From the NCBI RefSeq assembly GCF_000317205.1, contig NZ_AJLK01000011.1:1-64000 (forward strand): a stretch of 64,000 nt of DNA, written 5' to 3'. The stretch comes from Fischerella muscicola PCC 7414. GTDB taxonomy: Bacteria > Cyanobacteriota > Cyanobacteriia > Cyanobacteriales > Nostocaceae. The translations under genes and the position numbers were made by a program. Numbering within the stretch: the stretch's first letter is position 1; every line of letters starts with the position of its first letter. Under the pieces are notes generated by a model, which was not told where the DNA came from, did no database searches, and worked only from the letters and a program-made list of their open reading frames with translations. Shown one piece after another: positions 47,124 through 51,992 of this stretch.

Positions 47124-47244
47124 AGTCAGTTCCAGAAAGATTATAAATATGTACACACACTACTAGACTTACTAATATAGCATCCAAAACGCCAATGTTA
47201 TGATTTCTGAGAAAAAAGTCAGGTTTTGGTATTGGAGTCTACAT

Positions 47245-47765
47245 TGTTTAGTGGTTGATGGTTGTTGGTTTTTGGTGAGACCAGCCCCCCAAAAAGGCGG
47301 TCTCCGTCACGTAGACACGAAGTGGTGAGACAGCGCGCAGAAGGGGGGTTCTCCCCCAATCCCCACTCCCTGTCGGTCGTGGGGCCCCCGAGTCCCCCAT
47401 GAGCGACTGCGAACCCGGAGGGCTTAAGGTAAGGGTAGGGGGACTGGCGAACCCGTAGACACGAAGTGGCTTAAGGTAAGGGTAGGGTTGTTGGTGGTTG
47501 ATTGTTGGTTGTTGGTTGTTGGTTGTTGGTGGTGAGTCAGCGCGCCCCAAGGGGGGTCCCTCCCCCAACCCCAAAGGGGGCCCCTAGCCCCCAATCCCCA
47601 ACGCCAGGTGCTTTATGCCGGGAAACCCGTCCACCGCACTGGCTCCTCCCTGTCGGTCGTGGGGGCCGGTGAGTTCCCCATCCCCCCTTGTCTGGCTTGT
47701 CCCCCTTCTCTCCCTACACTCCCCACACTTCCTTGTCCCCGATCCCCTACTCCAGATTTTTGGCG
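47245..47765. repeat. Dense nested GC-rich repeat cluster
   Basis: It contains GTAGACACGAAGTGG twice (47311 and 47457), TTAAGGTAAGGGTAGGG twice (47424 and 47472), CCCTGTCGGTCGTGGGG twice (47387 and 47648), and TTGTTGGTTGTTGG arrays (47490-47530). CCCTTGTCCC and CCCCACACTCC units follow. Long ORFs in it are products of repeat composition and are not called. Confidence 0.85.
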
Positions 47766-47954: not shown

Positions 47955-48287
47955 ATGGCTTTAAAAATTATCGAAAATTTCGATGGCACTTTCACTCTTG
48001 AACCACAAGCGAAAGAGAATCTATTTAAATTATTGAGAAGTGAAGCATTTTTAAATCAAATTTGCCAAAACTTGCAGTGTGAACAAGTAGAATTTACAGA
48101 ATTGCTTTTTCAGCCAGTCCCTTACAGTATAGCCACTCCTAAAGGAATGCCAGCTGAATTTGAAAAATATCATGAATCGGAGGAGTACGTCATTATCAAC
48201 GTTCCGCCTAACTTCATGTTCACAGCCAAGATTTTTCAACCTAGTCGCCTTTGTGCTGTTTATAAGAAATTAGGGATTGGGAGGTAG
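47955..48287 (+). CDS. Hypothetical protein, small, possibly a conserved Nostocales protein
   Basis: A 110-residue protein with no recognised domain: MALKIIENFDGTFTLEPQAK, then a helix (ENLFKLLRSEAFLNQICQNLQ), then an aromatic-rich part with YHESEEYVIINVPPNFMFTAKIF. Composition and codon use look genuine. The last six or so codons run into the GGATTGGG repeat downstream (KKLGIGR), so the C terminus may be repeat-derived. No functional inference. Confidence 0.5.
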   Translation: MALKIIENFDGTFTLEPQAKENLFKLLRSEAFLNQICQNLQCEQVEFTELLFQPVPYSIATPKGMPAEFEKYHESEEYVIINVPPNFMFTAKIFQPSRLCAVYKKLGIGR

Positions 48288-48292
48288 GGATT

Positions 48293-48431
48293 GGGGATTA
48301 GGGGAAAGGGGAAAGGGGGAAGGGAAAAATACCAACCACTAACCACTAACTACTAACGTACAGACGCGATGTTCTTCGCGTCTGTACCCACCAACCACTA
48401 ACCACCAACCACTAACCACTAACTAAAATTT
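48293..48431. repeat. Repeat-filled spacer with a GTACAGACGCGA hairpin
   Basis: GGGGAAAGG units and CTAACCACTAAC heptamer-like arrays flank a perfect hairpin (48358-48387): GTACAGACGCGA and TCGCGTCTGTAC with a 6-base loop. It is the same class as the palindromes at 10193, 32211 and 54564. Confidence 0.8.
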
Positions 48432-49673: not shown

Positions 49674-51566
49674 TCACAAAACCCGGGATAAAAAAGACAA
49701 CCCTCCCCAAAACCAAACCCAACCGTTTGGCCTATTCTCCACTAAAGGGGAACACAGGGAAACAACGCCCCAATCCCCCTTGGGGAATATTAACACTTCT
49801 ATCCCCAAAGATGGACTAACTCCTACCAAGCGTGATGGAAGATGACCTTGGGGAGCATTAAGGGAAAAATTGAGATCAGAATATTTTAGCCACTCTTGTT
49901 GGATTCTCCAGCCAACGCGATCGCCCAATAAACACTCTGTATACTTATCGATTTCACCGCCTAATTCCAGCCAAATATGTTTCTGCACACTAAAACCAAA
50001 GTGTCCTTGGCTGTACTTTACCCAAAGAGTATCAATAGTGTGTAAATCTTGACAAGGAAATTCTCTAATATGTTCTTTTTTCAGCCAGCCTTTCTTTTCT
50101 TGATCGCTAACCTTGAGGATCAAAGCCGCAGTTAGTATATCTGCTTCTTTCCACTTTTCTTCTGCGAGTAAATTACGTAGTTGAGTATAGTCTACACTTC
50201 GCTCAGAGATCAGCTCATCACCTGTAATTACTGTTCGGATACCGCAGTCCTCTAATCTTGACATGAGAGCAGAAAATCTACTGGCTATCGTATTAGAATA
50301 ACCCCAATTCAACCATTCTCGACAATACGGTAGGTGTCCATAATTAGCATCTAAAGAGAAGGTGAGGTTGTCCAAACTTCTCCAATTCCCTTGGAAAAAC
50401 CAACCGACCCGATCACTGAAACGCTTAAAAGTTTCGTAATCTGCTCCTTTATTTTGAGAAAGACTTCGCCATATACGCAACTGCACACTAAAGCCAAATC
50501 TTCCTTTACTATACTCTAACCACAACTGATTGATTTGATATAAATTTTTATAGGGTAATTGTCTACAATCTTCTGCTTCGAGCTTACCTTTTTCTTGCCG
50601 ACCAGATAGTTTGAGTATTATATTTTTAGTCTCTAGGTTTGCTTCCTCCCACTTACCTGCTGCTAACAATTCTCTGAGTAATTGATAATTTATATCATTG
50701 TCTAAAGGATATTTAAAAATAGCTGTACTTATTTCTTTGTTTTCGGAAATAGGGTTTGTTTGGTTATTTATATTTTTAAGAAATACATCCTGTTTTATAG
50801 ATACATCTTGGTTATTTAATTTTTTAGATATTTTATAGCTAACTAAATGAATTGTTCGCCCAAAACCCATACGGATTGGTTCCTGACCAGAACCTCTAAG
50901 TTCTTTGGCAATGAAATCGAATAGGCGTTCACAACTTACTTGCCCATTCTCATCAGCATTATTAACCGAAAGTCCTTGGAGAAATGCGTCTGTAAAAATA
51001 CCGTGTTCTTTTCCTTCACGCGCCCTTTCAAAAGACCGACAGGCTGTAATTAGGTAATAGTCTGTTCTCTGTTGGAATGCCGTAAAAGTTGATGATACTG
51101 GGATGCTGTGTTCTAGTAATGAACCAGCATGGCAACAGTCCAGCACCATTACTAAACTACTGAGATCAGAAACGGCAATTAAATGATTTAATTCACTTAA
51201 TAAAATAGCGTTTTGTCCATCACTACTGCAATCAGAGGTTGCGAGATAACCTTTTTTATTTCCTCCCATACCTCGTATTTCAAAACCATGTCCAGCAAAA
51301 TAAATAACAGCCTCTTGCTTTGCTGCTTGTTTCAATAGAAACTGCTCTAACTCTTGAGTTAATTGCTTACCTGTCAGTTTTTTATCTGGAGCTATTTGCC
51401 ATCGGTTTTCTTCTGGGTTCCACTTAGCAGGTAATCGTTTAACTTCCTGAAAATTCCCGTTTTGTTCCAAAAGTTCAGCGATCGCTTCTGCATCATTCAC
51501 CGCTTTTGGTAGATTTGTGAAATTACTATAGTTTGCAATTCCAATTACCAAAGCATATTTTGCCAT
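49674..51566 (-). CDS. Caspase-fold peptidase with two GUN4 domains
   Basis: A 630-residue protein. The N-terminal caspase-like (metacaspase/C14) domain (1-240) has catalytic His93 in YFAGHGFE and Cys145 in VLDCCHAGS, both present. Two GUN4 domains follow. The first is about 294-435 (YQLLRELLAAGKWEEANLETKNIIL; FGFSVQLRIWRSL; DANYGHLPY). The second is about 468-630 (YTQLRNLLAEEKWKEADILTAALIL; FGFSVQKHIWLEL; NAPQGHLP). GUN4 domains bind porphyrins in chlorophyll synthesis and signalling, so a tetrapyrrole might gate the peptidase (inference). A segment of about 36 residues (49728-49835) interrupts the C-terminal part of the second GUN4 domain. It is divergent from the Trypco1-like gene. Confidence 0.88.
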   Translation of the reverse strand: MAKYALVIGIANYSNFTNLPKAVNDAEAIAELLEQNGNFQEVKRLPAKWNPEENRWQIAPDKKLTGKQLTQELEQFLLKQAAKQEAVIYFAGHGFEIRGMGGNKKGYLATSDCSSDGQNAILLSELNHLIAVSDLSSLVMVLDCCHAGSLLEHSIPVSSTFTAFQQRTDYYLITACRSFERAREGKEHGIFTDAFLQGLSVNNADENGQVSCERLFDFIAKELRGSGQEPIRMGFGRTIHLVSYKISKKLNNQDVSIKQDVFLKNINNQTNPISENKEISTAIFKYPLDNDINYQLLRELLAAGKWEEANLETKNIILKLSGRQEKGKLEAEDCRQLPYKNLYQINQLWLEYSKGRFGFSVQLRIWRSLSQNKGADYETFKRFSDRVGWFFQGNWRSLDNLTFSLDANYGHLPYCREWLNWGYSNTIASRFSALMSRLEDCGIRTVITGDELISERSVDYTQLRNLLAEEKWKEADILTAALILKVSDQEKKGWLKKEHIREFPCQDLHTIDTLWVKYSQGHFGFSVQKHIWLELGGEIDKYTECLLGDRVGWRIQQEWLKYSDLNFSLNAPQGHLPSRLVGVSPSLGIEVLIFPKGDWGVVSLCSPLVENRPNGWVWFWGGLSFLSRVL

Positions 51567-51580
51567 AGAGTTTTTACTGC

Positions 51581-51615
51581 TGTTAAGATTTTTAGGTATT
51601 ATTAATAACTTAACA
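51581..51615. promoter_or_regulatory. Inverted repeat TGTTAAG/CTTAACA in a divergent promoter region
   Basis: TGTTAAG (51581-51587) and CTTAACA (51609-51615) are perfect arms 21 bases apart, midway between the caspase start (51566) and the Trypco1-like start (51642). Possible regulator site; no known factor is recognised. Confidence 0.4.
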
Positions 51616-51641
51616 GAAACACATATGACTAGAGGCTACAA

Positions 51642-51992
51642 ATGTCAGAAGTACAACGCCTGATTGTCAAAGAAGACGGTCAAGAGTACGAAATTTACGT
51701 AGAATCTAAAACTGCTACTGAGGTTCCAGAACCAGGTTAACCCGTATACCGTGATGTTCTCCCCACTATCAATATTCAGGAGTTTCACGATAAGCTACGT
51801 GGCTATACTAAGTTAGCTCTGGGAGCATTTAAAAATTTACCTGAAGCTGAAGAAGTAACAATTAAATTTGGCATCAAGTTAGGTGGCAAGGTTGGCATTC
51901 CTATCTTGGCTGAAGGTTCTACAGAAGGCAATTTTGAAATTGAGGTGAAGTGTAAGTTTCCTGACAAGTATCAAAATTCTGGCAGTATTTGA
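51642..51992 (+). pseudogene. Trypco1 (CU044_2847-like) protein gene with in-frame stop
   Basis: From ATG 51642 the frame reads MSEVQRLIVKEDGQEYEIYV...ATEVPEPG and meets TAA at 51738-51740. The same frame then continues PVYRDVLPTINIQEFHDKLRGYT...LPEAEEVTIKFGIKLGGKVGIPILAEGSTEGNFEIEVKCKFP to TGA at 51992. The second part, with the FGIKLGGKVGIPI...EGNFEIEV core, resembles the trypsin-co-occurring domain 1 family of conflict systems. No in-frame start after the stop is well placed. It is either a broken gene, a base error in the assembly, or a readthrough codon. It lies 75 bases from, and divergent to, the caspase gene. Confidence 0.75.

Follow-up and report, generated by a model that had tools for sequence, protein, structure and literature searches.

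What does a caspase do with two GUN4 domains, and what has it to do with the Trypco1-like gene that stands beside it? Both questions are raised by a locus within the 64,000-nucleotide stretch of DNA analysed here (the window). An earlier note on this DNA suggested that a heme or chlorophyll intermediate could gate a death protease at this place, and it called such a system little described. Its coordinates for the two genes, and its divergent gap of 75 bases between them, are correct on re-reading. The features of the locus are these.

49674-51566, minus strand: orthocaspase with two GUN4-like domains, ORF of 630 aa (ORF reading and Pfam)
49833-50207, minus strand: GUN4-like domain B, residues 454-578 (PF05419, 8.4e-44, profile positions 2-124 of 141)
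50319-50699, minus strand: GUN4-like domain A, residues 290-416 (PF05419, 1.3e-36, profile positions 4-126 of 141)
50895-51560, minus strand: Peptidase_C14 (p20), residues 3-224 (Pfam, 3.9e-20)
51132-51134 and 51288-51290, minus strand: codons of C145 and H93, within p20
51567-51641, no strand: intergenic stretch of 75 bp between both start codons, head-to-head arrangement
51642-51992, plus strand: interrupted Trypco1 gene, ATG at 51642 (PF19493)
51738-51740, plus strand: in-frame TAA at codon 33, in an acidic linker ahead of the conserved core

The caspase–GUN4 protein and its interrupted neighbour

The profiles proposed for a check of the locus (Peptidase_C14, GUN4 and Trypco1) all match. 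The His93/Cys145 dyad is intact, with H93 in GHG and C145 in DCCHAG, and the protein is an orthocaspase with a dyad of the active type, for which protease activity is predicted. The two GUN4 domains are likewise confirmed: Pfam finds the family in two stretches of the 630 aa protein (2.9e-80), and nSTAND1 is not among its listed matches. The AlphaFold model of the full-length protein has a mean pLDDT of 68.0 and a pTM of 0.47, with blocks over the p20 region mostly above 70. A Foldseek comparison of this model with the PDB lists MALT1, metacaspases and other caspase-type chains among its matches. The best 50 of 82 matches with an E value of 0.001 or better are all caspase-type, and no GUN4 chain is among them. 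The only PADLOC models listed for the protein are that for caspases and PD-T4-6.

The PD-T4-6 match (1.1e-81) covers the GUN4 part of the protein encoded at 49674-51566. The model seems to include GUN4, and GUN4 proteins may therefore be at risk of being mislabelled as defence genes. Two further observations concern the genome itself. It holds a second caspase–GUN4 gene (L003:1408-3042, minus strand, contig C61) that belongs to another caspase branch. Dispersed repeats at about 47240-47690 and 48285-48430 of the window match dozens of places in the same genome or in G060 and G008.

The neighbouring gene had been described as Trypco1-like, and its family assignment stands: PF19493 matches the bases after 51741 at 1.5e-15 (58 bits, cut-off 24.6). 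However, the in-frame TAA at codon 33 had been overlooked, and the gene is interrupted. In a profile search of the genome, 51675-51959 aligns with positions 5-98 of PF19493 and includes one TAA; this is the only Trypco1 that the genome holds. On direct reading ATG, GTG and TTG are all absent between the TAA and the conserved core, and therefore no intact Trypco1 reading frame remains. Compared with its relative L074, the gene has a dN of 0.07 and a dS of 1.16 over 115 codons and had therefore been conserved until a short time ago. Either the stop is a young one or it stems from an error in the assembly. Across 51 intact Trypco1 rows 11 columns are invariant; the AlphaFold model of Trypco1 is poor (mean pLDDT 58.6, pTM 0.37). 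The 75 bp between the start codons presumably form a shared divergent promoter region, and a few of its columns are kept at 90% among 23 rows.

A head-to-head pair with a variable caspase C-terminus

Is the pair more than an accident of this genome? The 83-aa Trypco1 piece after the stop was used as query against 192 genomes of the family and found matches in 89 of them at 1e-5. The regions around the 55 best Trypco1 places besides the window, and around five weaker ones, were then retrieved. A caspase lies head-to-head at 50 of the 55 and at three of the five, or 53 of 60 overall. It is absent at L110, L121, L125, L126 and L128 of the former and at L130 and L131 of the latter. Two of the 53 paired caspases are very short or broken (L093 and L127), and three more end at 350-381 aa (L120, L122 and L124). 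The start codons in these pairs are 66-199 bp apart (median 72), a range that includes the 75 bp of the window; in the two closest sets the gap is 69-76 bp in 22 of 23 cases and 66-67 bp in 12 of 13.

Three places have short, solitary Trypco1 frames without a caspase (L121 near 3265, L125 near 3276 and L128 near 7103), with the same ORFs adjoining. We take these ORFs, by their look, to be glgC and dnaJ. The solitary frames look like relics beside housekeeping-type ORFs.

The pair extends beyond the family. Across the order, 64 of 388 genomes match the window caspase at 1e-45, 16 of which are the genome itself or members of its family. Among 20 regions retrieved from other families, Trypco1 lies head-to-head at the caspase in 15, once as a short fragment, and tblastn at 1e-4 detected none in the other five. 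Every caspase paired with Trypco1 in the two sets is head-to-head with it. Distances between caspases are also correlated with distances between the Trypco1 proteins (Mantel r 0.88 over 52 rows, with 0 of 2000 permutations as high), a value uncorrected for the species history that neighbours share. Within a 22-row clade, where species history is likewise shared, the value is 0.87, again with 0 of 2000 permutations as high. The window caspase falls in a 31-row clade (100/99), and Trypco1 accompanies 29 of the 30 other rows. The window thus holds a divergent Trypco1, across a short gap, beside a caspase of the paired clade. The pairing of caspase and Trypco1 is not chance.

The earlier note had asked whether the pair is conserved in related genomes. 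For caspase and Trypco1 it is, but the conservation does not extend to GUN4. Among 28 family pairs scanned with Pfam, 27 carry an nSTAND1 NTPase after the caspase, one of them as a partial match (L124), and the 28th is the truncated 381-aa ORF of L120. Past nSTAND1 there are WD40 repeats, HisKA and HATPase_c, or nothing recognised, and in single cases a nucleotide cyclase (L112) or pentapeptide repeats (L129). Five Trypco1-paired proteins of other families have nSTAND1 in three cases (one partial) and TPR repeats in two. The NTPase is thus a usual, not universal, feature of the pair, and one that the window does not have. GUN4 is absent among the Pfam matches listed for these 33 proteins, the lists for WD40-rich proteins running to 25 families at most. 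Nor did tblastn find it in the caspase ORF of any of the 53 family pairs or the 15 others, five of the family ORFs extending past the retrieved stretch; the search for GUN4 variants scored six candidates per genome, so rarer ones may be missed. Since no other pair examined has GUN4 and nSTAND1 is usual, it is GUN4 that sets the window apart, while Trypco1 is its constant part. In other words, a tandem of GUN4 domains occupies the usual position of the NTPase in a Trypco1/orthocaspase two-gene system.

The survey also turned up some unusual neighbours and variants. The lone GUN4 match in the 60 family regions belongs to a separate gene (L075:7634-8998, minus strand), a protein kinase by eye followed by GUN4 (tblastn), just past a Trypco1 whose paired caspase carries nSTAND1 and a histidine kinase. 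At the C-terminal end of one Trypco1-paired caspase–nSTAND1 protein (L078:4038-6803, minus strand) is a domain of the phycobilisome family (PF00502, 27 bits, cut-off 22.2). The two with TPR repeats and without nSTAND1 (L197:4053-6062 and L199:3885-5999, both plus strand) are further NTPase-free variants.

Among published designs, the closest is the two-gene system of EACC1 and a caspase. It is described in PMC7159879 as prevalent in actinobacteria and consists of a small constant gene and a second gene whose N-terminal caspase is constant while the C-terminal domains vary greatly and include STAND NTPases; EACC1 systems are also said to contain nSTAND1 (PMC8195603). The likeness lies in the small constant partner and the constant caspase with its variable C-terminus. 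However, the partner here is Trypco1 and not the membrane-spanning EACC1, and the genes are head-to-head whereas those of the EACC1 system are arranged 5'/3'. The EACC1-type caspase is the sole NCBIfam model listed for the window protein, which reaches 83.9 bits against a cut-off of 140.

Trypco1 also occurs in VMAP systems, where, according to PMC7159879, Trypco1/2 goes with trypsin-like peptidases and the caspase with an alpha/beta-hydrolase. As in those systems, Trypco1 adjoins a peptidase gene at the window, but here the peptidase is a caspase. The four neighbouring ORFs scanned with Pfam (GH116, Uma2, GIY-YIG below the cut-off, and one without match) contain no match to MoxR, vWA or VMAP, and no conflict-type gene is apparent among them. 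Adjacent Trypco1/2 and effector genes, including caspase-like peptidases, are frequent at clade 5A DGR loci (PMC10907252). Within the texts searched, no published account was found in which Trypco1 and an orthocaspase stand head-to-head and the control modules can be exchanged; supplements may list the pair. In PMC10156173 the words for caspase and fusion found no match.

The fusion of caspase and GUN4 is another matter. Such proteins were reported in 2010 (PMC2853523), 29 GUN4-bearing orthocaspases have been tabulated (PMC8283722), and binding of tetrapyrroles to GUN4 has been proposed to regulate fused enzymes (PMC7159879). The window protein is like the published ones in having a caspase p20 fused to GUN4. 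The fusions, as a finding, and their regulation by tetrapyrroles, as a proposal, are thus already in print, and little described is not what they are. Four other caspase–GUN4 proteins (L003, L158, L161 and L173) lie outside the paired caspases in the tree, and no Trypco1 was seen in their retrieved stretches.

Porphyrin-contact residues of the GUN4 copies

Can these GUN4 domains bind a porphyrin in the known way? In Arabidopsis GUN4, F191 and R211 are important for porphyrin binding, and their mutation lowers it (PMC8967248). The corresponding columns were placed by their spacing to GHLP, guided by PDB alignments and the genome's own canonical GUN4; the assignment is our own reading of the spacing, and a residue displaced by an indel could escape notice. 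Of 76 domains, 16 had no GHLP-type anchor and were left out. At the position of Synechocystis W192 the canonical GUN4 of this genome has Tyr, and W192 was therefore not among the criteria.

Both window copies have L in the F191 column, and they have L and V in the R211 column. Of 47 distinct other non-canonical domains, three have F and five have R in the respective columns, none has the two together and none has the NxLR motif. These 47 come mostly from loci retrieved for their likeness to the window and are no random sample, and a few are in ORFs that are short or truncated, not in proven fusions. The canonical rows have F, W and R (three rows, all from the window's genus, two of them distinct). 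The two window copies share an FGFSVQ-type motif with 38 of the 47. Compared with the canonical GUN4 structures (PDB 1y6i, 1z3x and 4ykb), the window copies belong to the same sequence family by their PF05419 match, and copy B matches 1z3x at 3e-22. They differ in having neither the porphyrin-contact F nor the R, and in the segment after GHLP, which is unlike that of canonical GUN4.

The loss of both equivalents would not prove a loss of binding, but judged from the residues the textbook porphyrin mode is unsupported, and with it the gating by heme or chlorophyll that the earlier note had put forward. The GUN4 copies may instead act as a module for protein binding or for an altered ligand, and not as a porphyrin sensor of the classical kind.

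History and standing of the locus

One aspect that complicates matters is that the histories of the two genes seem to disagree. A first caspase tree places the window among the Trypco1-paired caspases, as the sister of a family clade of 22 rows (100/100 with the window excluded). With other families added it lies in the 31-row clade mentioned above, leaning weakly (84/66) to family f33, and its end branch is long. In the Trypco1 tree the window groups with L074 and relatives (97/94; 87% identity). By its Trypco1 the window joins the Nostocaceae-family clade, from which the caspase tree excludes it. AU tests, with groups named after the trees had been seen, reject a caspase with L074-L080 (p 1e-6) and a Trypco1 with the f33 rows (p 0.0008), and do not reject a Trypco1 outside the family rows (p 0.08). 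In a 37-row Trypco1 tree the window is in no starred set and its placement is weak. The trees were built without L093 and L127, whose caspases are short or broken, and dS is saturated in the caspase comparisons, so dN/dS is not given for them. The discordance may reflect an exchange of the caspase gene or its fast change, and the halves here are possibly not one evolving unit.

The GUN4 part has relatives of its own. Copy A is closest (65%) to the GUN4 of the caspase–GUN4 protein L158. Copy B, locus remnants aside, is closest (61-64%) to domains of trypsin-type (L166), CHAT-type (L164 and L165) and kinase (L169) proteins. This fits an assembly from a shared pool of modules.

What remains of the locus in close relatives? 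The same site was compared in G008 and G060 of the same genus and in G057 and G122 of a second genus, of which G004 and G108 were left out. G008 retains a 146-bp piece of GUN4 B, and in G060 only 19 bp separate the flanks. What is left in G057 is the protein from residue 495 onwards and the tail of Trypco1; in G122 it is the Trypco1 tail only. The remnant in G057 indicates that the window-type GUN4 was already next to Trypco1 prior to the split of the two genera. The locus is decaying, with fragments or nothing in four close genomes.

The locus is thus probably a module-swapped, decaying member of a Trypco1/orthocaspase two-gene system with a variable caspase C-terminus. In such a system a small constant Trypco1 stands head-to-head with a constant orthocaspase. 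The relatives mostly have an nSTAND1 NTPase, which is often followed by a module of the sensor or signalling kind, where the window has two GUN4-like domains instead. The caspase would be the effector, the C-terminal module would sense and set its assembly or conformation, and Trypco1 would dock on or restrain the caspase domain and so regulate it. Cell suicide or conflict would be plausible roles for the pair. In the window genome the system probably works without a Trypco1 of its own, or is on its way out.

Perhaps, though, there is no system left to work. The pair could be a pair of pseudogenes without present function, the caspase ORF being open merely because its decay is young. The TAA in Trypco1, the remnants at the same site in the four genomes and the long end branch of the caspase would all agree with this, but 630 open codons, an intact dyad and two strong GUN4 matches would not; moreover, the single stop could be an assembly error in a gene whose codons are otherwise conserved. 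We regard this account as possible but rather doubtful. A death protease gated by tetrapyrroles, in which the photosynthetic state switches the caspase through heme or a chlorophyll precursor bound to the GUN4 pair, seems unlikely. It can draw on the family match across both copies, the FGFSVQ-type motif that they share with most of the other domains and the general proposal in PMC7159879. Against it are the L in place of F191, the missing R at R211 and the rarity of either residue, and of the NxLR motif, among the other non-canonical domains, and the Pfam matches end at 124-126 of 141 profile positions. This residue test speaks against it as the main reading. That the neighbours stand together by chance, without joint function, is scarcely credible because the pair is conserved: the partner is missing at seven of 60 family Trypco1 places and in five of 20 other caspase regions, and the interruption affects Trypco1 and not the caspase, but wherever the partner occurs it is head-to-head. 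A bolder version of the swapped-module account would give a caspase that is widespread in cyanobacteria a dedicated on/off partner in Trypco1, and have the NTP-driven switch replaced outright by a GUN4 pair sensing a small molecule or bilin, yielding an ATP-independent death protease gated by pigment status. This is a long shot.

For the GUN4 family the locus is a warning that a fused GUN4 domain need not be a porphyrin sensor. As for Trypco1, its conservation here indicates that it is not merely a neighbour of trypsins but marks a caspase system of the Cyanobacteriales in which a constant protease is joined to an exchangeable control module, a layout that resembles apoptosome-like designs. 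With a GUN4 pair naturally standing where relatives have an NTPase switch, the locus offers a ready comparison for the role of the C-terminal module.
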